Source: Geitlerinema sp. BBD 1991-9 (GTDB lineage Bacteria; Cyanobacteriota; Cyanobacteriia; Cyanobacteriales; Geitlerinemataceae). From it: a stretch of 64,000 nt of DNA. Both the position numbers and the translations under genes were made by a program. This document shows positions 1,329 through 25,257 of this stretch, piece by piece (positions within the stretch are counted from its first letter, which is position 1; every line of letters starts with the position of its first letter). The DNA lies in NCBI GenBank assembly GCA_001657325.1, contig LWRO01000003.1:1-64000 (forward strand). Direction: 5' to 3'. The notes under the pieces are model-generated. The model searched no databases, was not told the origin of the DNA, and saw nothing but the letters and a program-made list of their open reading frames with translations.

Positions 1329-2237
1329 ATGAGTAATTCATTGGATCTTGCAAAAGTTTCGGAACACGAGCGTCTTGCCTTTTATGGCGCACTATTTTCA
1401 ATTGCTTTAGCAGATGGTTCTCTTGATAAAGAAGAAATCGAATTACTTTTCGGAATAATAGACTTGGAGGGCATGACTGAATCTGCAAAACGGGAAGTAC
1501 AGTCATATATTATTGAGCCACCTTCTTTATATGCATGTCTAAAGTCGTTGGAAGCAGCAGATGAGAATTTGCGGTATGGACTGATGATTAATTTAGTTGA
1601 TACGGCTTGGGCAAATGACGAGTTGGATGCCAATGAAAAACAGGCAATTACGCTTGCACAACAGGAACTTAAAATTTCTGACAAACAGTTAGATGCGATC
1701 GAAAAGTTTATCAATAAAGTTCGAGAGATTCGGATACGTGGTTTAGATGACAATTACGCAGCCGATACGATTAAAACAGCAGCAGCAGGACTTTCTGCCG
1801 TGGGAGTTCCTGTTGCTGCCGTCTGGTTCTCTGGCTCTGTTATTGGATTAAGTGCAGTAGGCATCACCTCCGGTTTGGCAGGACTTGGAGCATTAATTGG
1901 TTTAGGCGGCATGATTCCTGGTATTGGTGTTGCCATTCTATTAGGAACTGGCATTTTTATAGGTGTTAATACTTTACTTGATACAGGAGATAAATCTAAG
2001 AAAGCAAAGTTGCAAGCCGAAAAAGAACGTAAAGCTCAACTGGTAATTAAGAATATGCAAGATGCTATTAACCAGCTAGTCGAGCGGATTGCGAAGCTTC
2101 AAGAAAAAACAGCTCATCTCGAGTCTAGTGCCGCTGATGCAGAGGCAAATCGAGAAGCAATCCAGCGTTTGACCGAACGTCTAAAATTCATGCAGCAGTC
2201 AGTTGCAAAGCGCAAGCATGCTTTTGGGGCAAGTTAA
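1329..2237 (+). CDS. TerB-domain protein with glycine-zipper membrane region and coiled coil
   Basis: 302 residues in three parts. Residues about 10-135 form two TerB-like helical repeats, with acidic motifs ALADGSLDKEE near 27 and TAWANDELDANEK near 92. Such acidic motifs are typical of the tellurite-resistance TerB fold, which often binds metal. Residues about 150-216 are hydrophobic and very rich in Gly (GLAGLGALIGLGG), a glycine-zipper segment expected to insert in membranes. Residues about 222-295 are a charged coiled coil. The next gene starts one base after the stop, so the two are surely co-transcribed. Codon use is more AT-rich than in the neighbouring dnaG, which suggests transfer. 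I do not know the exact family. A stress or abortive-infection membrane effector is an inference from architecture. Confidence 0.75.
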   Translation: MSNSLDLAKVSEHERLAFYGALFSIALADGSLDKEEIELLFGIIDLEGMTESAKREVQSYIIEPPSLYACLKSLEAADENLRYGLMINLVDTAWANDELDANEKQAITLAQQELKISDKQLDAIEKFINKVREIRIRGLDDNYAADTIKTAAAGLSAVGVPVAAVWFSGSVIGLSAVGITSGLAGLGALIGLGGMIPGIGVAILLGTGIFIGVNTLLDTGDKSKKAKLQAEKERKAQLVIKNMQDAINQLVERIAKLQEKTAHLESSAADAEANREAIQRLTERLKFMQQSVAKRKHAFGAS

Positions 2238-2238
2238 A

Positions 2239-3720
2239 ATGCTCTCCAATAAGTTTATTGTGGAGCTAGGAATTGCCTTACAAACTCAGAATCATATCCT
2301 GAGTCAAGTCGATTCAGCGGCTTCAGATATTGAATCTAAACTAACTGAGCTCGAGCAGAAACTATCCAGCTCCGGCTCAATGTCGGAACAACTCCGAGAA
2401 CTTGAAAGTCTAATGGATGACTTGGAAGCTTCTCAAGAGTTAGTAGAATTAAAAGATTTTGGTGACTTTAATCCAGATCGAATTCTACATCTCTATGAAA
2501 GCCGTCAGAAATCTATTTTTCAAGCGTTAAACAGAATTGGATTTAAGGACTGGGATAGCTTTATTAGGAAATGTAAAACTTATACCTTATCTCAAGGCAT
2601 CGATTCACTAAAACCATACGAAGTCTTTTTAACTGATGCCGATTTGGAGGCGCTACGATCGAACTCTTACAGCGATCGATATCAATGGGATCGATGGGAT
2701 TACATTTTTGTTGGAGCTAGTGGCGTTCTTGCGTCTCTAACGGATTACCTCTTGGTTAAAATACCTACAACATTAACAACAGGTGAATATTCAGGTCAAA
2801 TCGGTAGTCCTATAACTGAGTGGTTGAAAAGCTATGACACAACCCAAGCAGATGATTGGTTTGCACGATGGGCAAATCGCCTTGAAGACATCTGCAAAGT
2901 TCCTTACGACTCAATGAGTTCTGTAGGAGCAGAGCAAACGGAGCGGATTGCTGGAATGTTCCCTAAATCGCACCGTATTCAGTCTTTAGGTCACGATCCT
3001 GTGCTTGGCTTCGTGTTTGGAGTCCTAGATATCATGCGAGGTACAATTACGGGTTTCTCTTATGACAAGTTAACGGGAAATCATGCCTGGATGCAGGGAG
3101 TCGTTTGGACTAACCAGGAACCGATTCACTTGATTGAAGCAATTCTCCGTCAGATCGGACATCTAATTTCTGATGTTGCGACTCCGATGGGGTTGCCAGC
3201 TCCCTTTATGGCCTTAATTCAAGGAATCAACTTAGGAAGTTTTGGAGATAAAGATCGAACCGTTGGAGAAATTGCGAGATGGATGTATCTTAACGGTTAT
3301 GACTTTAGACACTTCCTAGTTTCTGGAATCACTCCGGCAGTTATCGAAATTATTCTCCGTGCTTACATGATGTTGAGACATTACTCTGAGTACGGAGAGA
3401 CGAAATTCAACTTAGCTTCTCACCCAAAATACCGAGCTATGTTATTGGTTGCTCATGGAATTGCAACTTTAGGCAATGCCGGTAAAATCTTATTGATGCA
3501 GGGCAATCCCCTTGCCATCAACTATGCAGAGTGGATAGCTTTTACTCGGTATCTAATTCCTAATCTTAAGTATTGGCTATTCGATCGACATCATTTGTGT
3601 CTAGAGCATTGGGAACAAATTAACTCAGAAGGATGGAATCAGCTATTACAGAGTAGCGATCGTTTGCTCGAAAGCGTTGCAAAACTGAATAAGCAAGAGT
3701 TGGTCTTAGGAACAACATAA
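2239..3720 (+). CDS. Unrecognised partner of the TerB-domain protein
   Basis: 493 residues from the ATG at 2239, which directly follows the upstream stop (TAAAATG) and has TGGGGC about 10 bases before it. A TTG at 2203 and an ATG at 2218 are in-frame alternatives. Residues about 18-65 are a coiled coil (ESKLTELEQKL, QLRELESLMDDLE). Near residue 157 is a hydrophobic segment VGASGVLASLTDYLLV that could be a membrane anchor or buried helix. The remainder is rich in aromatic residues with several hydrophobic helices (PFMALIQGINLGSF, AVIEIILRAYMM). No catalytic motif was recognised. Coiled coils in both proteins suggest they form a complex. It is intact and AT-rich like its partner. Function unknown. 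Confidence 0.7.
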   Translation: MLSNKFIVELGIALQTQNHILSQVDSAASDIESKLTELEQKLSSSGSMSEQLRELESLMDDLEASQELVELKDFGDFNPDRILHLYESRQKSIFQALNRIGFKDWDSFIRKCKTYTLSQGIDSLKPYEVFLTDADLEALRSNSYSDRYQWDRWDYIFVGASGVLASLTDYLLVKIPTTLTTGEYSGQIGSPITEWLKSYDTTQADDWFARWANRLEDICKVPYDSMSSVGAEQTERIAGMFPKSHRIQSLGHDPVLGFVFGVLDIMRGTITGFSYDKLTGNHAWMQGVVWTNQEPIHLIEAILRQIGHLISDVATPMGLPAPFMALIQGINLGSFGDKDRTVGEIARWMYLNGYDFRHFLVSGITPAVIEIILRAYMMLRHYSEYGETKFNLASHPKYRAMLLVAHGIATLGNAGKILLMQGNPLAINYAEWIAFTRYLIPNLKYWLFDRHHLCLEHWEQINSEGWNQLLQSSDRLLESVAKLNKQELVLGTT

Positions 3721-15839: not shown

Positions 15840-18800
15840 TTATTGGAGAAGTGCTTGTTTTTCGAGAAAGAGTTTGTGGCGATAGTATCCACAGCGTGAT
15901 TGAATGGCAGCCAACATCTCGAATAGTAGCTGAGTCGAAAAACAGAGATTGGTATTCTGCTGTATGTCTGCGAGATGGTATCCCTTCGCACATTTCTTGA
16001 GCGCGTTATAGGTATTCTCAAAGACCTCAAAATCTTCTGCTTCCAGCACTTCAATCAAAGCACTTGTCGCTACATCACCTCCAATATTTCCTAACGCCTC
16101 AGCAACTCGATCTCGGGAATAAAAACCTCGATCTCTCGATATCGATAAGTCTTCTTCATCTTTAAATAAATCGACGAGAGCCTCTACAGCAGCATCACCA
16201 CCAATTTTTTCGAGCGCGTTAATTGCAGCTTCAAAAACATCGCAACGATAATAATATGAACTTTCATCTTCACAATCTAAGCACGTCTCTTCATCATGCA
16301 GTGCGCGAACGATCTCAGGAACAGCCCGATCGTCACCGATTTTCCCCAATGCTTCAATAAGATTGCTGCGAAGGTATTGATAATCATCAAGATCGAGAAA
16401 GTCAAGAAAAGCAGAAACAACTCGATCGTCTCCAATATTTCCTAATTTATTGATAATTTCTCTGCATAAGTAACTGTTTTCCGCATCAAATGCACGATCG
16501 AGTTCGTCAATTAAGTCAGGAATCGATCGATCGTCTTGATTTTTTTCTTCACGATTGATAGATCTAGATTGAGTACCCATAGATGAGTCCCCGAGAAATT
16601 CCTCTGATTCTATAGAAGTATCTCGATGTTTATGAACTTCACAATTTAGAACTGTGGAGAGAGCATTAACTACTGCTCTGTTTTTGATTTCTTGTAACGA
16701 TTTAGCATCAACTTGAAAATCTTCCGTATTTTCATTATTGCAGATATCGAGTAGAGCTTTGACTGCATCTTTACTACCAATTTTTGCCAAGGCAATGATG
16801 AGAGCTTTACAAAATTCTTTACGAAATTCCGAGTCCTCTTCATTGAATGCGTTAATGAGATCGGGAACCGCCGCTTCGCTGCCAATTTTTCCCAGTGCAG
16901 TAGCAGCAGCCTTACGTTGCTTGTCATTTTTTAAGTAGAATTTGAGACGGTTCACTCTTTCTGAAAGCTCTCGAGTGTTTAAAACCCTAATTAGAGAAGG
17001 GACAGCGGACTTATCACCAATTATTCCTAAGCTATCAATGATATGAAGACGTAAAGATAGATCTCGATCTGTAAATGGTAATTCAGTTAATGAATCGAAA
17101 CTTTTCCTAGCCCGAAAAGAAAGCGGACGATCGACTATTTCAATAAATTTGGAAACTACAGCAGTACCACCAATTTTTTCTAAAGCCTCAATAATTCGAT
17201 GTCTATCAACATAAAAATTGTTACAATCGAGTAGCTCTAGAAGTTTTGGGGCGGCCAACGAATTGCCTATATTTCCAAGCACTTTAACAATATCAGTTCG
17301 TAGATCCAAATATTTTACTCTATCCGAGATTTCACATAGAGCATTGACAGCCGCTTTCCCTCCAAATTTACCTAATGCTGATATTACTGATGAGATAATT
17401 TTATATTTCCCAAACCGTTCAGAATCGTCTTGAATTTTAATATTAAAAATTTGTATCAGGGTATTCACAGCAGCCGAACTTCCGATATTCCCTAAAGCAC
17501 TCAGAGCCACCAAACAATCCTGTAGAGCCACTTGACGATCGCGAGTTGCCGTCAATTTCGTTTCCCAATTGAGTACTGCGTCCAAAAGAGTAGGAATCGC
17601 AGCATTACTTTCAATGTTCTCGATCGCCGACTTCGCCACTTCTTTACGAACCCGAGTTGAAGCTGACAACATTTCGAGGAGAGTCCGTGTTTCAGTTTCA
17701 CCCGCTCGACGTGCGAGCTTTTGCAAGGCTTTAACTACCTTTTCACGATTCCAGTGATTTCTGTTGTTATTATCTAGCGTTTCATTGAGAGCCAAAATCG
17801 AAGCGTTCGAGCTAATCTCTCCTAAAGCTAGAGCCGCACGTCCGCTTACATTTACAGATTGACTGTTGAGGTAATGTTGTAAAAAGGGAACCGCAGCAAC
17901 CGATTTTGTCGTTTTCAGCAGCTCGATCGAACCCTCTGACGAACATTCCCACTCAGCGATCGATCCCACGATTTGCGCTTGAAACGGCTCCCGAACCGCT
18001 CCCACTAACCTCGCCCCCAACATCCAATCTACCTGCACGAACGCCAACCCCACCACTCGCCTCGCCAGCGCCTCATCCTCGAGCAATCCTAACGCCAGCA
18101 CCATTGACTCCGTCCATTTGAGAAAATTGAGATAATCCCGCGTCAGCACCTCATCGCTCAAATGCGGCAACCGCTCTAACAAGACTTCGGCGGCGAAATA
18201 CGACTGTAACAGTGAATGGCGAAACTCAATTTGTCCGTCTACCGGTTCTCGTAACAAGCGATGGCGCAAAAAACGATTCAGCCAAGATGTCGCCGCTTCC
18301 TGGGATTCCGAAACTCCCACTTCTCTCAAACATTCCGCGAATCCACTCAAAACGTACTGGCGAGACATCACCCTCGTTCGCGCCGTCAGTCCATCTCCTT
18401 CGAGGCTTTGAAATGCCAACTGCTTCAACAGTCGATTCCCGGATTCTCGCTCTAACTCGTCCGTTTGTTCGTCATCGTAACGTGCGAAAGCTCGCAACAT
18501 CTGCCCGAGATTTTCGGGAACGGCGCGGAGTCGATCGAATGCGACACAGAGCATTTGCAATTGCAGCGGCGTTTCGGCAAACTCCTGCGATCGACCGTAC
18601 AATTGGGGCAACAACTGCGCCGCAATTTCGGGAAAATATTCCTCAATAAAATCGCTCGCCTGGGACGTTCTGAGCCGTTGTACCGTCAGCTTTTTCTCGA
18701 TGCCAAACTCTCTCTGAATCGGGAGATCCTGCATCGCCAACACCGTCGGCATGGTGCGATATCGATCGAGAAATTCCCACAAATCCTGTTGCGCTGCTTC

Positions 18801-19289
18801 CGTTGGTAACGCCTCCGCATCGTCGAACAGCAGGAAAAACCGCCCCGCTTGCAACTCCTGCGTCAGTTCCTCGACTGACAAAGATACGCCATGTCGTGCC
18901 AATTCTCCGAGGAGCAAATCGATGACAGACTCGCGATACAACCGTAACTTCACCAATACGGGAATTTTGGCTGTCGAGTCGGTATTCTCCCGTGCGGTTG
19001 CCGCTAACTCCAGCAACAGGCGCACGAGTGCTGTAGACTTTCCCGATCCCGGCACACCGCACAGCAAAACGCGATCGAGAGCGTAGGTTCGCAATGCCTC
19101 TGACAAATCGAGCAACCGAGCTTTTGGACTGCGATCGGATGCTTGCACTTTCAACTTGAGATTCAGCCAAGACGCTTGTGACGGTTGCACCTCTCGATCT
19201 CGCCTGGCTAAATCCACGAGCGCGTCACGCTCCCACCAGCGATCGTACTCTCGTTCGATGGAATTCAGGTAGCTTTGCCAGTCCGTCAC
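15840..19289 (-). CDS. NACHT-HEAT repeat protein (NLR-like)
   Basis: 1149 residues. Residues about 70-165 carry a NACHT/AAA P-loop: Walker A GVPGSGKST at 78-86 and Walker B FFLLFDD at 151-157. Helical winged modules follow to about 430. From about 465 to 1110 there are many HEAT/PBS-like repeats with the recurring core ALGKIG or ALEKIGG (for example AATALGKIGSEAAVPDLINA), interrupted by an acidic insert near 905-945. The signalling-ATPase plus repeat-sensor layout is that of STAND/NLR proteins. Several bacterial NACHT proteins defend against phage, but this one has no obvious N-terminal effector domain. It is transcribed alone behind a set of nested inverted repeats. Confidence 0.88.
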   Translation of the reverse strand: MTDWQSYLNSIEREYDRWWERDALVDLARRDREVQPSQASWLNLKLKVQASDRSPKARLLDLSEALRTYALDRVLLCGVPGSGKSTALVRLLLELAATARENTDSTAKIPVLVKLRLYRESVIDLLLGELARHGVSLSVEELTQELQAGRFFLLFDDAEALPTEAAQQDLWEFLDRYRTMPTVLAMQDLPIQREFGIEKKLTVQRLRTSQASDFIEEYFPEIAAQLLPQLYGRSQEFAETPLQLQMLCVAFDRLRAVPENLGQMLRAFARYDDEQTDELERESGNRLLKQLAFQSLEGDGLTARTRVMSRQYVLSGFAECLREVGVSESQEAATSWLNRFLRHRLLREPVDGQIEFRHSLLQSYFAAEVLLERLPHLSDEVLTRDYLNFLKWTESMVLALGLLEDEALARRVVGLAFVQVDWMLGARLVGAVREPFQAQIVGSIAEWECSSEGSIELLKTTKSVAAVPFLQHYLNSQSVNVSGRAALALGEISSNASILALNETLDNNNRNHWNREKVVKALQKLARRAGETETRTLLEMLSASTRVRKEVAKSAIENIESNAAIPTLLDAVLNWETKLTATRDRQVALQDCLVALSALGNIGSSAAVNTLIQIFNIKIQDDSERFGKYKIISSVISALGKFGGKAAVNALCEISDRVKYLDLRTDIVKVLGNIGNSLAAPKLLELLDCNNFYVDRHRIIEALEKIGGTAVVSKFIEIVDRPLSFRARKSFDSLTELPFTDRDLSLRLHIIDSLGIIGDKSAVPSLIRVLNTRELSERVNRLKFYLKNDKQRKAAATALGKIGSEAAVPDLINAFNEEDSEFRKEFCKALIIALAKIGSKDAVKALLDICNNENTEDFQVDAKSLQEIKNRAVVNALSTVLNCEVHKHRDTSIESEEFLGDSSMGTQSRSINREEKNQDDRSIPDLIDELDRAFDAENSYLCREIINKLGNIGDDRVVSAFLDFLDLDDYQYLRSNLIEALGKIGDDRAVPEIVRALHDEETCLDCEDESSYYYRCDVFEAAINALEKIGGDAAVEALVDLFKDEEDLSISRDRGFYSRDRVAEALGNIGGDVATSALIEVLEAEDFEVFENTYNALKKCAKGYHLADIQQNTNLCFSTQLLFEMLAAIQSRCGYYRHKLFLEKQALLQ

Positions 19290-20485: not shown

Positions 20486-21160
20486 ATGTCCGAAGCTATC
20501 AACCTCGAAGACGCAGTAGAATTCGCCGAAAACCCAGAGCCACGCTGTCCCTGCGTTCTTCTCCTCGATACCTCTGGCTCTATGTCTGGCGCACCCATTG
20601 ACGCACTCAACACGGGGTTACAGACGTTTCGCGAAGAACTCAATAAAGACGAACTGGCACGTAAGCGCGTCGAAGTTGCCGTGGTTTCGTTTAATACTCA
20701 CGTTAAAATCGTACAGGATTTCGTCACCGCCGATCGATTTGAAGAACCCACCCTCAGCGCTCAAGGACTCACGAGTATGGGAACGGCGATCGACAAAGCA
20801 TTAGATTTAATCGCCGATCGAAAGGCACAATACCGCAACAACGGCATCACCTACTACCGTCCCTGGCTGTTTGCGATTACCGACGGCGAACCCCAGGGAG
20901 AATCCGATAAAGCAGTTCAACAGGCGATCGATCGAATTCGGGATGACGAAACCAACAAGCGCGTCGCCTGTTTCGCTGTGGGAGTCGAAAACGCCAACAT
21001 GGAACGCCTCACGGAAATGTTCGTGCGCGCGCCACTGAAACTCAAAGGATTAGATTTCCGCGAAATGTTTGTGTGGTTATCGACAAGTATGCAGCGCGTT
21101 TCCCACTCCCAACCGGACGAACAAGTTCCCCTTCCGCCTCCGGGTTGGGGCGAGGTTTGA
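20486..21160 (+). CDS. von Willebrand A domain protein, TerY-like
   Basis: 224 residues from ATG 20486. A single vWA domain has a complete MIDAS: DTSGSMSG, the Thr in SMGTAIDKAL and the Asp in FAITDGEPQG. It resembles TerY proteins, which bind a metal and act as the sensor or scaffold of a phosphorylation triad. The next two genes on the strand are a PP2C phosphatase (68 bp on) and a kinase (99 bp further), so the classical vWA-phosphatase-kinase set is complete and co-oriented. A longer upstream start at 20447 has no support. Confidence 0.9.
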   Translation: MSEAINLEDAVEFAENPEPRCPCVLLLDTSGSMSGAPIDALNTGLQTFREELNKDELARKRVEVAVVSFNTHVKIVQDFVTADRFEEPTLSAQGLTSMGTAIDKALDLIADRKAQYRNNGITYYRPWLFAITDGEPQGESDKAVQQAIDRIRDDETNKRVACFAVGVENANMERLTEMFVRAPLKLKGLDFREMFVWLSTSMQRVSHSQPDEQVPLPPPGWGEV

Positions 21161-21227
21161 AGGCGTTAAAAGGCAGAAGGCAAACGACTACTGCCTCTCC
21201 TTGCCTCTCCCCTATTCCCCATTCACA

Positions 21228-22151
21228 ATGAAAATTACAGCATCTAGTGTGAAGCTTGATAATGACCTCTCAACTTGGCGAGTTTTCGCTACGTCGGTGT
21301 GTGGAACCAGTCACCAACGCCGAGGGCAGCCCTGTCAAGATGCTCATTGTTGGAAACGCTCGGCCAACGGCGTACTCATCGCAGCAGTGGCAGACGGTGC
21401 AGGTTCGGCGACTCGATCGATTGAAGGGGCAAAACGAGCGGTTGAAGCCTCGATCGAATTCCTCACCGACATCGATTTTACCCAATTTAACCCCGCTGCT
21501 CCCGTTCCATTAGCGGATTCCGAACTAACGATCGATTTATCAGAAGCTGAAAATTCGGAAACTGGGAATTCAGAAACGAAAACAGAACTCGAAACGATTC
21601 TCGCAGGTGCCCTTTCAACTGCCCGAAATGCGGTCAATGCGGAAGCCAAAAGCCACTCGATCGACGTTCGAGAATTTGCCAGTACCTTAATTTCGATCGT
21701 CGCAACATCCGACTGGGTCGCTGTAGCACAAATTGGCGACGGGGCGGCAGTCGTGCGAGATTCCGAGGAACAGTCGATCGCCCTGACGCAACCGCAACAG
21801 GGAGAATACGCCAACCAAACGACATTTCTCACCTCAGACAACGCCCTCGAAACGGCCCAAATCGAAATTTGGCAGGGAACACCCACGCATTTAGCTTTAT
21901 TTTCCGACGGATTACAGCGATTAGCCTTAGAAATGCCAGAAGGAAAACCGTTCGATCGATTTTTCAATCCCCTCTTTCAATTCGTCACCCAGAACACCGA
22001 CGAAACCGAAGGCAGCACTCAACTCGCCACCTTCCTCCAATCTCCCCGCGTCACCCAACGCACTGATGACGATCTAACCTTATTATTAGCCCACCTTTAC
22101 AGTGAACAGCGAGCGGTCAACAGTGAACAGTGTAAGGAACAGTGTAAGTAG
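21228..22151 (+). CDS. PP2C-type protein phosphatase
   Basis: 307 residues from ATG 21228. The PP2C metal-binding motifs are present: the Asp in GQPCQDAHCW near 30, VADGAGSA near 48, QIGDGAAVV, and TDDDLTLLLA near the end. This is the short PP2C form that accompanies TerY-like vWA proteins and kinases, where it would reverse the kinase's action on Ser/Thr. The last few codons (SEQRAVNSEQCKEQCK) come from a short tandem CAGTGAACAG-like repeat and may be an extension beyond the domain. Confidence 0.9.
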   Translation: MKITASSVKLDNDLSTWRVFATSVCGTSHQRRGQPCQDAHCWKRSANGVLIAAVADGAGSATRSIEGAKRAVEASIEFLTDIDFTQFNPAAPVPLADSELTIDLSEAENSETGNSETKTELETILAGALSTARNAVNAEAKSHSIDVREFASTLISIVATSDWVAVAQIGDGAAVVRDSEEQSIALTQPQQGEYANQTTFLTSDNALETAQIEIWQGTPTHLALFSDGLQRLALEMPEGKPFDRFFNPLFQFVTQNTDETEGSTQLATFLQSPRVTQRTDDDLTLLLAHLYSEQRAVNSEQCKEQCK

Positions 22152-22250
22152 TGGGCAATGGGCAAGAGCGGAGGCGTACCCCTACAGAACAAACGGTTTT
22201 AACTGATGACGGGTGACGGGTGACTGATGACTGATGACGGGTAACTGAAA

Positions 22251-24404
22251 ATGAAGGTGCAACGGCGATCGAATAGCGAATTAATTACCCTCAGACGCGA
22301 ACTCGGTGGAGGTGGGGAGGGGAAGGTCTACGCAGTTGCCGAAAATCCATCTTGGGTGGCGAAGGTATACCATCGACCCACAGCGGAAATGGCTCGTAAA
22401 CTGGCGGTAATGTACGCCAACCCGCCGGAAGATCCCCTGCGTTCTCAAGGACACGTTTCGATCGCCTGGCCGGAAGATTTGCTCATCGAACGGGGGCGCG
22501 TGGTGGGATTTCTCATGCCTCGCGCCGATGGGAGCTTTCCCCTGCATACGTTTTACAACCCAACCTCTCGCCGCGATCGATGCCCGCTTTTTAACTATCT
22601 TTACCTCCATCGCACGGCCCGCAACCTCGCTGCCGCCGTTAGCAACTTACACGTGCGAGGCTATGTCATCGGCGACGTGAACGAGTCGAACATTCTCGTC
22701 AGTCGCACGGCGTTAGTCACCCTAGTCGATACCGATTCGTTTCAAGTGTGCGATCGATCGCGAAACGAATTGTATCGCTGTCCTGTGGGAAAACCAGACT
22801 TCACGCCGCCAGAATTACAAGGGAAAACTTTACGCCACGTTCGCCGTCTCCCCGAACACGATCGATTTGGGTTGGCAGTTCTGATTTTTCAATTGCTGAT
22901 GGAGGGAACGCACCCGTTTTCAGGAGTGTTCTCGGGGAGCGGCGATCCCCCTCCCATCGAAGCCCGCATCGCCAAGGGACATTTCCCTTACGGGATGCGT
23001 CCGGTTCCCTATCGCCCGATGCTCGTCGCGCCACCTTTTGAAATACTCGCTCCAGAACTGCGGCGATTGTTCGTTCGCTGTTTTGAAGACGGACACGACA
23101 ACCCCAAACTACGCCCCGACGCCCCCACTTGGTCGAAGGCGTTGGAAGTGGCGGAAGGCCGACTCGTTGAGTGTTCGGTAAATTCTCAACATCGCTATGG
23201 CAGCCATCTGTCCGAGTGTCCTTGGTGCGCCCGAACTCAGCAATTGCGAGGTCGAGATCCGTTTCCGCGCACCGTAGCAGAGGCGGGACGCTTGCGACAG
23301 CAGCCGATGCCCAAACCGAAAAAACGGGCGAAATCCCTCAAAGATCGCGTTCTTTCGCCGACTCCTGCCTTGGCGTATACCGTTCGCTTTCCCCAACCGA
23401 TGAGCGTTGCTCGAGTGCGTGGGGTTGGCTGGGGGCAAGTCCTGGCAGAGTTTTGGGCGGATTTGGCGAAGTACAAATACGATTTGTTGGCGGGCGGTGC
23501 GATCGTCGCCCTGGCGATCGCGGGGAGTATTTATGTGGTGAATCGTGAAAATGCCTCGCCTTCGGTGGAAACGTCTGTGGTTACAACGATCGATCGATCG
23601 AATTCGGATTTGCAGACCTCTTCTTCAGACGATACTTCAGCGTTACAAGCGCCTGTCGAGCGGTTTTACAGCCATCGCGCTCGCATCAATGCGGTAGCCG
23701 TCAGCCCGGATGGGACGCGGTTCGCTTCGAGTAGTGAAGATGGATCGATTGCGATCTGGAATGGGTCGACTCAGATGCCGTTACAGTCGCGCCGCCTGTC
23801 CTCGGTTTTGCAATTACCCGAAGATCGCATTCGATCGATGGCGTTTGGGGCGGACGGACAAACGTTAATCATCGCGACGGCGCGGGAGTTACAAGTTTGG
23901 GATGCCGACACGCTTACATTTCGAGAATCGATGCCGTTGTCATTAACACCGATGGCGATGACAGTATCGATCGATCGATCGGTTCGTGTCGTCGGAAGCT
24001 CGGCCTGGGAAACCGTGGTTTGGGACGTTTTTCAGAATTTAGAACTCCAACGTTGGGAAAATCTCGACCGTTCAGTGCTGGCAATGAGTGGGGACGGGCG
24101 ATCGATCGGAGTGGGAGGCGATGAGATCGAGATTTGGAACGTTGAAACCGGGCAAAAACACCAAACACTCCCCGCGAAAGTCCAAAAAGATATGGCAGTT
24201 GCGTTGAGTCCCAACGGTCAACTGTTGGCGTTAAGCGTTCCTGAAGACGATGGCGACATTCAGCTGTGGGACGTGAAAACCGGGCAGCTCTTGCATGCAG
24301 AAACCGCCAGTCACATTAGCGTGCTGGCGTTTAGTCGAGATGGCAAAACACTCATCAGCGGAGATCTGTACGGCTCGATCGGGATTTGGAGAGTGGGGAA
24401 ATGA
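22251..24404 (+). CDS. Serine/threonine protein kinase with zinc-ribbon, one TM helix and WD40 repeats
   Basis: 717 residues. The divergent kinase domain occupies about residues 1-300: Gly loop LGGGGEGKVYAV, Lys in WVAKVYHRP, catalytic loop YVIGDVNESNILV (Asp in GDVNESN in place of HRD) and metal Asp in LVDTDSFQV. A Cys-rich element HLSECPWCAR follows near 320, then a membrane helix LLAGGAIVALAIAGSIYVV near 410. The C-terminus carries WD40-type blades (INAVAVSPDGTRFASSSEDG). It is the third gene of the vWA-PP2C-kinase triad. The membrane anchor and propeller suggest sensing outside the cytoplasm, an inference from topology. Confidence 0.9.
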   Translation: MKVQRRSNSELITLRRELGGGGEGKVYAVAENPSWVAKVYHRPTAEMARKLAVMYANPPEDPLRSQGHVSIAWPEDLLIERGRVVGFLMPRADGSFPLHTFYNPTSRRDRCPLFNYLYLHRTARNLAAAVSNLHVRGYVIGDVNESNILVSRTALVTLVDTDSFQVCDRSRNELYRCPVGKPDFTPPELQGKTLRHVRRLPEHDRFGLAVLIFQLLMEGTHPFSGVFSGSGDPPPIEARIAKGHFPYGMRPVPYRPMLVAPPFEILAPELRRLFVRCFEDGHDNPKLRPDAPTWSKALEVAEGRLVECSVNSQHRYGSHLSECPWCARTQQLRGRDPFPRTVAEAGRLRQQPMPKPKKRAKSLKDRVLSPTPALAYTVRFPQPMSVARVRGVGWGQVLAEFWADLAKYKYDLLAGGAIVALAIAGSIYVVNRENASPSVETSVVTTIDRSNSDLQTSSSDDTSALQAPVERFYSHRARINAVAVSPDGTRFASSSEDGSIAIWNGSTQMPLQSRRLSSVLQLPEDRIRSMAFGADGQTLIIATARELQVWDADTLTFRESMPLSLTPMAMTVSIDRSVRVVGSSAWETVVWDVFQNLELQRWENLDRSVLAMSGDGRSIGVGGDEIEIWNVETGQKHQTLPAKVQKDMAVALSPNGQLLALSVPEDDGDIQLWDVKTGQLLHAETASHISVLAFSRDGKTLISGDLYGSIGIWRVGK

Positions 24405-24475: not shown

Positions 24476-25189
24476 TCACTCTGCCACAGTTCCGTCCGGC
24501 ATAGTCGCGCCTTTAAAATCGGCGTTGTCGAGGATAGTCCCCGTTAAATCGGCATCCCGCAAATCAGCGTTGTGCAGGACGACACCGCTGAGATCGGCAT
24601 AACTGAGATCGGCACCGCGTAAATTGGCGTAACTGAGATCGGTGGGAACGTTTTCTGCACCGTATTCAGTACTGAGGTTTGCCCGACAAAACTTAGCTCC
24701 TTCTAAATTGGCGCGATGAAGCAAGGCTTCGTTCAGGTGAGCGTAACTCAGATCGGCTTCGCGAAGGTTGGCTTCTTCGAGGTTTGTTCGCTGGTCGGAA
24801 GTCGGCCGGAAATCCGCCTCAATGAGTAATGCTCGATCGAGAACAGCACGACTGAGGTTCGCCCCGCAAAATATCACTTTGATCAGATTGGCGCGTTCTA
24901 GCCGCGTTTGGGTGAGTTGAGCGGCACTGAGATCGGCATCTCGCAAAATGGCACTATACAAATCCGCTTCGCTGAAGTCGGTTCCCCAGAGAATGGCTTC
25001 GCTGAGGTCAGCTTCGCGAAAGCTGCTGCGGTGAAAATGCGTGCGACCGAGCCGCGCTTGTCGGAAATCCGATCGATCGAAGGTAGCGCGGCTGAGATCG
25101 GCGTTGAGGAGTTCGCACTCTCGTAAGTCGATGCTGTCAAACGCGCGATCGCCTCGATCGTAGCGCTGGATAAGTTCGTCAACGTCCAT
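24476..25189 (-). CDS. Pentapeptide-repeat protein
   Basis: 237 residues from ATG 25189. From about residue 20 the sequence is almost wholly A(D/N)Lxx pentapeptides (ADLSRATFDRSDFRQARLGR, ANLREADLSYAHLNEALL), which fold as a right-handed quadrilateral beta-helix. Cyanobacteria encode many such proteins. Most have unknown roles, and a few mimic DNA and inhibit gyrase. A short helical start (MDVDELIQRYDRGDR) precedes the helix, as in many cytosolic members. It lies 68 bp downstream of a nitronate-monooxygenase-like gene on the same strand and may be co-transcribed. Confidence 0.92.
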   Translation of the reverse strand: MDVDELIQRYDRGDRAFDSIDLRECELLNADLSRATFDRSDFRQARLGRTHFHRSSFREADLSEAILWGTDFSEADLYSAILRDADLSAAQLTQTRLERANLIKVIFCGANLSRAVLDRALLIEADFRPTSDQRTNLEEANLREADLSYAHLNEALLHRANLEGAKFCRANLSTEYGAENVPTDLSYANLRGADLSYADLSGVVLHNADLRDADLTGTILDNADFKGATMPDGTVAE

Positions 25190-25257
25190 CGAAAACCTCG
25201 TGAAACTCAGCGTTAGGGGCAATGCTGGGATTGTCCTATCGAGGTCTCGTTCCTATC

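Follow-up and report, generated by a model that had tools for sequence, protein, structure and literature searches.

A YegL-PphC-YegI-type triad with a WD40 sensor tail in Geitlerinema, and the heterocyst-envelope link of its orthologs

The 64 000-nucleotide stretch analyzed here (Geitlerinema sp. BBD 1991-9, contig LWRO01000003.1, positions 1 to 64 000; hereafter, the window) contains three co-oriented genes that encode a von Willebrand factor type A (vWA) protein, a PP2C-family phosphatase and a protein kinase with a WD40 tail (Table 1). In the initial annotation, positions 20486-24404 were read as a full TerY-P-type set of vWA, PP2C and kinase genes, and both the coordinates and the domain list are borne out; the zinc-ribbon-like segment, transmembrane (TM) helix and WD40 blades noted in the kinase were likewise recovered, as a C-H-C-C module, a predicted helix and a modelled propeller. 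The intergenic gaps are short, 67 bp between the vWA and PP2C genes and 99 bp between the PP2C and kinase genes, and the longest open run in the region is 719 codons, compared with a maximum of 291 in 500 mononucleotide shuffles. All components of the broad TerY-P definition, a TerY-like vWA protein, PP2C and a kinase with a C-terminal zinc module (PMC11090510), are present in the triad. The triad is of a known, well-conserved kind and carries a new sensor tail; its orthologs have an unexpected link to the heterocyst envelope.

Table 1. Genes and protein features of the triad (positions in the window).
Feature	Position	Strand	Size or basis
vWA protein, YegL ortholog	20486-21160	+	224 aa; Pfam VWA 1.2e-13
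PP2C_2 phosphatase, PphC ortholog	21228-22151	+	307 aa; Pfam PP2C_2 7.5e-54
YegI-type membrane kinase with WD40 tail	22251-24404	+	717 aa
Kinase domain, residues 1-303	22251-23159	+	alignment, residue counts, structure model
Presumed zinc module, C308-x5-H314-x8-C323-P-W-C326	23172-23228	+	residue conservation
Single predicted TM helix, residues 412-430	23484-23540	+	hydropathy 2.27
WD40 beta-propeller, residues 471-717	23661-24401	+	Pfam WD40, model, PDB 5yzv match

The residues expected to matter for function are intact in all three proteins. The metal ion-dependent adhesion site of the vWA protein (D28xS30xS32 ... T96 ... D133) is complete; D28, S30, S32 and T96 are retained in 119 of the 120 other vWA rows, and D133 in all 120. 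The five aspartates of the PP2C acidic motif (D38, D56, D171, D227 and D281) are all present in the phosphatase, each being D in 127 of 130 other rows. The kinase contains K38, GD142..N147 at the place of HRD..N, D160xD162 at the place of DFG, PPE188, D204 and R288. Residues D142, D162, E188, D204 and R288, together with C308, H314, C323 and C326, are invariant in 162 other kinase rows (L009-L089, L097-L176 and L178; 151 distinct over residues 21-300, the two locus sets overlapping), whereas K38, D160 and N147 are each retained in 161. The C-H-C-C module is a presumed zinc module, its four conserved ligands suggesting zinc binding. The Pfam match of the kinase domain is weak (Pkinase 1.8e-06, 28 bits versus the curated cut-off of 31.7) and that of the tail is WD40 at 1.2e-18; a model of residues 1-344 reaches a predicted local distance difference test (pLDDT) score of 92 and resembles solved protein kinases. 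The full-length AlphaFold2 model (mean pLDDT 80) places a helix at 412-431, with low local confidence, and propeller strands from residue 471 on. The best match of the WD40 part in the PDB is the prokaryotic WD40 domain 5yzv (E 2.6e-17); a sequence search of solved structures gave no relative of the vWA protein or PP2C at E <= 0.01 and only general kinases for the kinase.

The same gene order, vWA, PP2C and kinase on a single strand, is found in Escherichia coli K-12 (locus L089). The vWA protein of the window is 52% identical to YegL at full length (225 columns), the phosphatase is 34% identical to PphC over 286 columns, and the kinase is 37% identical to YegI over 336 columns, the latter similarity being confined to the kinase-plus-CPWC part: the main BLASTP alignment stops at residue 331, and the two tails fall into different clusters. 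Profiles of the cyanobacterial sets, built without rows L055 and L082, match YegL, PphC and YegI at 2.5e-97, 4.5e-80 and 8.4e-103, respectively. By comparison, the vWA proteins of enterobacterial plasmids show 29-32% identity to the window protein (13 sampled rows), and a row from a Pseudanabaena plasmid shows 27%. The one inspected plasmid row of the 13 (L177) lies inside a ter region, whose proteins have profile scores of 91-112 bits for vWA, 87 for PP2C and 77 for the kinase, that is, distant homology for all three. The high similarity to YegL, PphC and YegI and the shared gene order, set against the low similarity to the ter-plasmid proteins, place the triad by sequence in the YegL-PphC-YegI branch of the broad TerY-P kind, separate from the ter-plasmid branch. 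No TerD or TerC family member is found among the 10 window proteins scanned with Pfam, the rest of the window being outside that scan.

Compared with the E. coli system, the three orthologous proteins, the gene order, the C-H-C-C module, the DxD motif and the membrane-bound kinase are shared. The differences are that yegJ separates the kinase and phosphatase genes in K-12, and that YegI has a tail made up of a pair of predicted TM helices and another long region (presumably helix-hairpin-helix, by name), whereas the window kinase has one TM helix followed by WD40. The TerY-P modules of ter plasmids and CoCoNuT systems contain the three identical domain types but differ in having TerD/TerW neighbors, several vWA genes, a 545-aa PP2C and the lower vWA identity given above. 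The structural match of the tail, 5yzv, is a Thermomonospora WD40 domain, which we take to belong to a PkwA-type protein, a kinase-WD40 propeller fusion. An identical three-gene set, kinase-zinc ribbon, PP2C and vWA, has been reported as linked in the GAP1-N2 systems, which differ in being actinobacterial and in their GTPase-centered components (PMC7159879). A search of the accessible literature found no paper that combines TerY, vWA, PP2C and kinase, and none that joins cyanobacteria, serine threonine kinase, WD40 and PP2C; two papers by Rajagopalan, on PphC and YegI, may say more.

In the cyanobacterial phylum, the kinase domain is matched in 106 of 386 genomes at E <= 1e-5. Matches that reach 388 bits (identity of 56% or higher) are denoted class I, and the rest are weaker class II or general kinase matches; a hand count from the match table gives class-I kinases in 65 of the 386 genomes. 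The full order on one strand is found at 60 of 80 loci of a first set and at 56 of 80 loci of a second, named set; L002-L008 and L090-L096, duplicates or other genes, were excluded from later locus comparisons. The PP2C and kinase genes lie no more than 150 bp apart in 35 of the 60 and 42 of the 56 complete triads, and several kb apart in others, e.g. in family f6. At locus L125, a metagenome contig labelled Tatlockia, the kinase is, judging by branch lengths in the kinase tree, nearly identical to that of Aliterella/Chlorogloea, so that the contig is probably mislabelled or comes from a mixed bin.

Downstream of the zinc module, the tails of class-I and class-II kinases fall into unrelated groups. 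A TM helix precedes WD40 in the window's family and f3, and TPR in f2 and f5; the f6 kinases have about six TM helices, and a second kinase of f1 has GUN4; FGE-sulfatase, DUF1036, PQQ propeller and PDZ tails occur elsewhere in the kinase family. Lineages thus share a conserved kinase core and differ in the sensor tail attached to it: five tail states require at least 10 changes on the kinase tree, compared with four if each had arisen once. This is a quick tree of 114 kinase domains hand-picked from 164 rows, with no shuffle control and with tail labels set by hand from clusters. WD40 tails and FGE tails are each present in both kinase classes and, therefore, were gained or exchanged more than once. 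The family can be regarded as a set of natural kinase chimeras for studying the coupling of sensors to bacterial Ser/Thr kinases.

Several individual tails deserve mention. L044, L047, L049 and L050 (f1, relatives of the window) encode an additional class-I kinase, whose tail is of the GUN4 type; the upstream stretch fetched there contains neither a vWA nor a PP2C gene. The kinase tails at L060, L075-L079, L136, L163 and L169 form one FGE-sulfatase (C-lectin-like) cluster; cyanobacterial kinases with C-lectin tails have been reported as targets of diversity-generating retroelements (PMC7517822). The 1093-aa protein at L055:3762-7043 (-), encoded beside PP2C and vWA, scores twice as a kinase and contains two CYWC modules, after which come WD40 and TM helices.

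The genomic context of the triad is best defined in family f5, which is read as Nostocaceae on the basis of genomes that match loci named as Nostoc, Desmonostoc and relatives (e.g. L024 with L148 and L035 with L139). The vWA ortholog is present in 190 of the 192 f5 genomes at E <= 1e-60, and in 20 f5 genomes compared pairwise, 189 of the 190 locus pairs have a flanking gene in common. At 51 Nostocaceae loci (these 20 and 31 named ones; 49 distinct), a glucose-1-phosphate cytidylyltransferase gene (RfbF) lies downstream on the same strand in 50, accompanied by an L-2-hydroxyglutarate oxidase-like gene in 48 and an epimerase gene in 47, and a divergent response-regulator gene lies upstream of the triad in 48. 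Further downstream in G125, HepC (337.3 bits, NCBIfam cut-off 140) and HepA (1064.4 bits, cut-off 725) were identified. In G125, G340, G393, G051 and G233, the five triad-bearing f5 genomes checked, a HepA over its cut-off is encoded ~13-21 kb beyond the kinase, downstream and on the same strand. In Nostocaceae the triad, therefore, has a fixed locus next to the heterocyst envelope polysaccharide (HEP) island.

This locus can be traced to published Anabaena genes. Three genes annotated as ‘hypothetical protein', alr2822, alr2823 and alr2824, directly precede alr2825, a glucose-1-phosphate cytidylyltransferase gene, and are down in a sigC mutant (log2 ratios of -1.48, -1.58 and -2.24, respectively), as is the HEP island (PMC4390870). 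The island starts at alr2825 in that paper, whereas it is given as alr2822-alr2841 in another, where it is down 2.5-fold in a cse mutant (PMC7065334). A FurC box has been published 286 nt before alr2822 (PMC10406281). The 19-mer of this box is found in 3 of 13 genomes of the genus, 286 nt before the ATG of the vWA gene in G393 and G387, and 281 nt before it in G024. Because this distance and the gene order agree, alr2822 is very likely the vWA gene and, judging by synteny, alr2823 and alr2824 would be the PP2C and kinase genes. The accessible literature on alr2822-alr2825 and the HEP island yielded expression tables, and no description of this trio as vWA, PP2C and kinase was found there; Huang et al. 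2005 may say more.

The Nostocaceae orthologs and the window genes are alike in forming a class-I triad with kinase domains that are 57-63% identical and with one predicted TM helix after the zinc module; the Nostocaceae differ in their TPR tail, the divergent DUF4388-response-regulator neighbor and the HEP genes downstream. The divergent gene with DUF4388 and a response-regulator receiver is found at 56 loci, all in the class-I TPR-tail group, and in family f2 it lies near a CheA-type kinase gene. Through this neighbor, the TPR branch is connected with a second signalling system.

The triad is probably best understood as an ancient, membrane-bound phosphorylation switch of the YegL-PphC-YegI type with a fixed kinase core and a swapped sensor tail, which serves chromosomal envelope or developmental signalling more than phage defense; such a role is suggested by heterocyst formers, in which the triad heads the HEP island. 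Under this scenario, the kinase would be anchored in the membrane, its catalytic domain and zinc module facing the cytoplasm and the WD40 propeller most likely lying on the opposite side, given that the kinase needs cytoplasmic ATP and there is a single helix. Binding to the propeller, or its assembly, would alter kinase activity; the kinase would autophosphorylate and then phosphorylate its substrates, and the PP2C protein would reset the system. Such a cycle is postulated by analogy with E. coli, where the membrane-bound Ser/Thr kinase YegI phosphorylates itself and PphC removes the phosphate (PMC13232886). The vWA protein, with its intact metal site, may act as an adaptor that docks the kinase, the phosphatase or a substrate. 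Contact between triad partners is supported by L082:3378-6992 (+), a single 1204-aa chain with Band_7, vWA and kinase domains, that is, a fusion of two of the partners. In G262, the vWA match lies within a 1294-aa frame.

To our knowledge, the chemistry of the E. coli YegI-PphC pair has been worked out but its role has not. The probable Anabaena orthologs at the head of the HEP island provide an experimentally accessible setting to find the role of this kind of system, gene deletion and simple phenotypes (coat staining, growth on N2 in air) being available in this organism.

Several observations weigh against an envelope-signalling switch. We know of no phenotype for the triad, and the kinase motifs are non-canonical, with xGD substituting for HRD and DxD for DFG. 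The placement of WD40 across the membrane rests on hydropathy and the ATP requirement, and class II relatives have WD40 without a preceding TM helix. At 18 loci of the first set and 19 of the second (80 each), the kinase has no full triad in the fetched upstream stretch; a further 2 and 5 loci, respectively, end within 3 kb upstream, and a vWA relative exists somewhere in all 25 genomes chosen for a vWA search, mostly those with incomplete triads. The family is not solely chromosomal: YegI-type kinases are found on 57 plasmid records, 24 of them predicted to be conjugative (some of the 57, 4.9 Mb ‘plasmids', resemble chromosomes). The HEP connection has gaps as well. In the window's genome (G000), no HepA scores over the cut-off, the genes directly downstream of the kinase encode a pentapeptide protein and a nitronate monooxygenase rather than HEP proteins, and a comparison of 21 window genes with the fetched loci gave a single match, a pentapeptide gene in L027, so that the HEP link is not direct here. 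The same comparison, in which synteny within the window's own family was sought, found none. Two genomes of genus g169, G419 and G447, the only f5 genomes of the 192 without the vWA gene, both keep HepA over the cut-off, G419 with the kinase and G447 (88% complete) without it; the trio is thus not indispensable for having HepA. Finally, a gel shift showed no binding of FurC to the alr2822 site (PMC10406281).

A broader extrapolation, tentative and on balance doubtful, is that class-I triads represent one ancient envelope-sensing phosphorelay of E. coli and cyanobacteria, in which the kinase, phosphatase and adaptor stayed fixed and tails (WD40, TPR, six-helix, GUN4, FGE) were exchanged whole, and which was captured for the heterocyst polysaccharide coat, the WD40 tail reading a different envelope signal in the window's lineage.

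The initial annotation connected the triad with stress and phage defense. CoCoNuT restriction systems are accompanied by TerY-P modules, and stand-alone anti-phage systems are reported among TerY-P-like modules whose kinase has an OB-fold (PMC11090510). Under this hypothesis, the kinase would sense infection or damage, and the phosphatase and vWA protein would gate a toxic or nuclease response. The fit to the broad TerY-P definition, the plasmid-borne kinases, and the presence of a Bunzi system and a NACHT-HEAT protein in the same window are compatible with it. Nevertheless, the window proteins are orthologous to chromosomal yegL-pphC-yegI and far from ter-plasmid TerY, no obvious toxic effector is encoded among the three products, and defense models give no good match. 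In PADLOC, the vWA protein matches TerY at E=0.0099 only, which is a weak test, given that the models also miss the ter-plasmid TerY. Conservation at one housekeeping locus in all cyanobacteria, named at the outset as an argument against defense, does not extend to the phylum, where 65 of 386 genomes encode class-I kinases, but the triad is near-universal and fixed at one locus, beside envelope-polysaccharide genes, in Nostocaceae. A phage-defense role for the window triad thus lacks support and is distinctly unlikely; in the wider family, mobility and such a role are both conceivable, defense mainly for class II and plasmid-borne triads. L178 (Trichormus variabilis plasmid A, typed conjugative) is a plasmid-borne class II triad whose kinase has WD40, and plasmids of Cupriavidus, Rhizobium, Deinococcus and others encode vWA proteins close to the YegL type (49-56%).

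Even less probable, to the point of being dismissible, is functional coupling of the triad to the ‘TerB-domain system' at 1.3-3.7 kb, some 17 kb away. This system is real but its identity is that of a Bunzi defense operon (window 1329-3720), with a BnzA-like protein (302 aa, covering model positions 154-445 of 544; 3.2e-41) and BnzB (7.8e-87). BnzB is found in 7 of 386 cyanobacterial genomes, all 7 of which carry a class-I kinase, and the two systems share the window. However, 4 of the 7 are Nostocaceae (f5), where the vWA gene is near-universal anyway, and 58 of the 65 genomes with a class-I kinase do not have BnzB, which in the window's family is true of 5 of the 6 genomes. Therefore, co-occurrence shows no coupling, and the suggested cross-talk between the triad and the TerB proteins is not supported.

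Two further possibilities concern the output of the triad and its topology. The window triad might itself control envelope polysaccharide synthesis or export, with WD40 reading the state of the envelope, as suggested for its relatives, which are linked to and co-regulated with the HEP island; the predicted membrane anchor of the sensor tail would fit. This specific function seems rather improbable, considering that WD40 takes the place of TPR, that G000 lacks HepA over the cut-off, and that no polysaccharide gene is found among the scanned neighbors in the window or among 10 triad-flanking proteins from five genomes of other families, most flanking genes of those loci being outside the scan. 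These 10 are GGDEF-PAS, pentapeptide, Tex, RNase III-like, CheA-like, DUF4388-response regulator, FHA-cyclase and transposase proteins and two unmatched ones. Alternatively, the hydrophobic stretch may form no membrane helix, in which case WD40 would serve as a scaffold that collects substrates in the cytoplasm. Scaffolding is a classic function of WD40 propellers, the class II kinases at L064, L066 and L069 have WD40 without a TM helix, and the charge bias of the predicted helix is weak (two K before and one R after, in flanks of 15 residues). The hydropathy of 2.27, the location of the stretch at the same position as the single helices of class-I kinases with TPR or other WD40 tails, and the membrane-bound state of YegI (PMC13232886) make this topology comparatively unlikely, and a membrane-spanning switch is preferred.

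The remaining observations concern the neighborhood of the triad. The pentapeptide protein encoded tail-to-tail with the kinase (24476-25222, -) matches the NCBIfam model HetL (326.5 bits, cut-off 260), and in G298, a pentapeptide gene is located immediately upstream of the vWA gene. On the other side of the triad, positions 15840-19289 (-) encode a 1149-aa AAA/NACHT-like protein with many HEAT/PBS repeats (PADLOC HEAT-ARM_XIII, 6.4e-17). Short near-tandem repeats (AACAGTG, TGACGGG/TGACTGA) occupy the last part of the PP2C gene and continue into the intergenic stretch ahead of the kinase gene (22096-22250).

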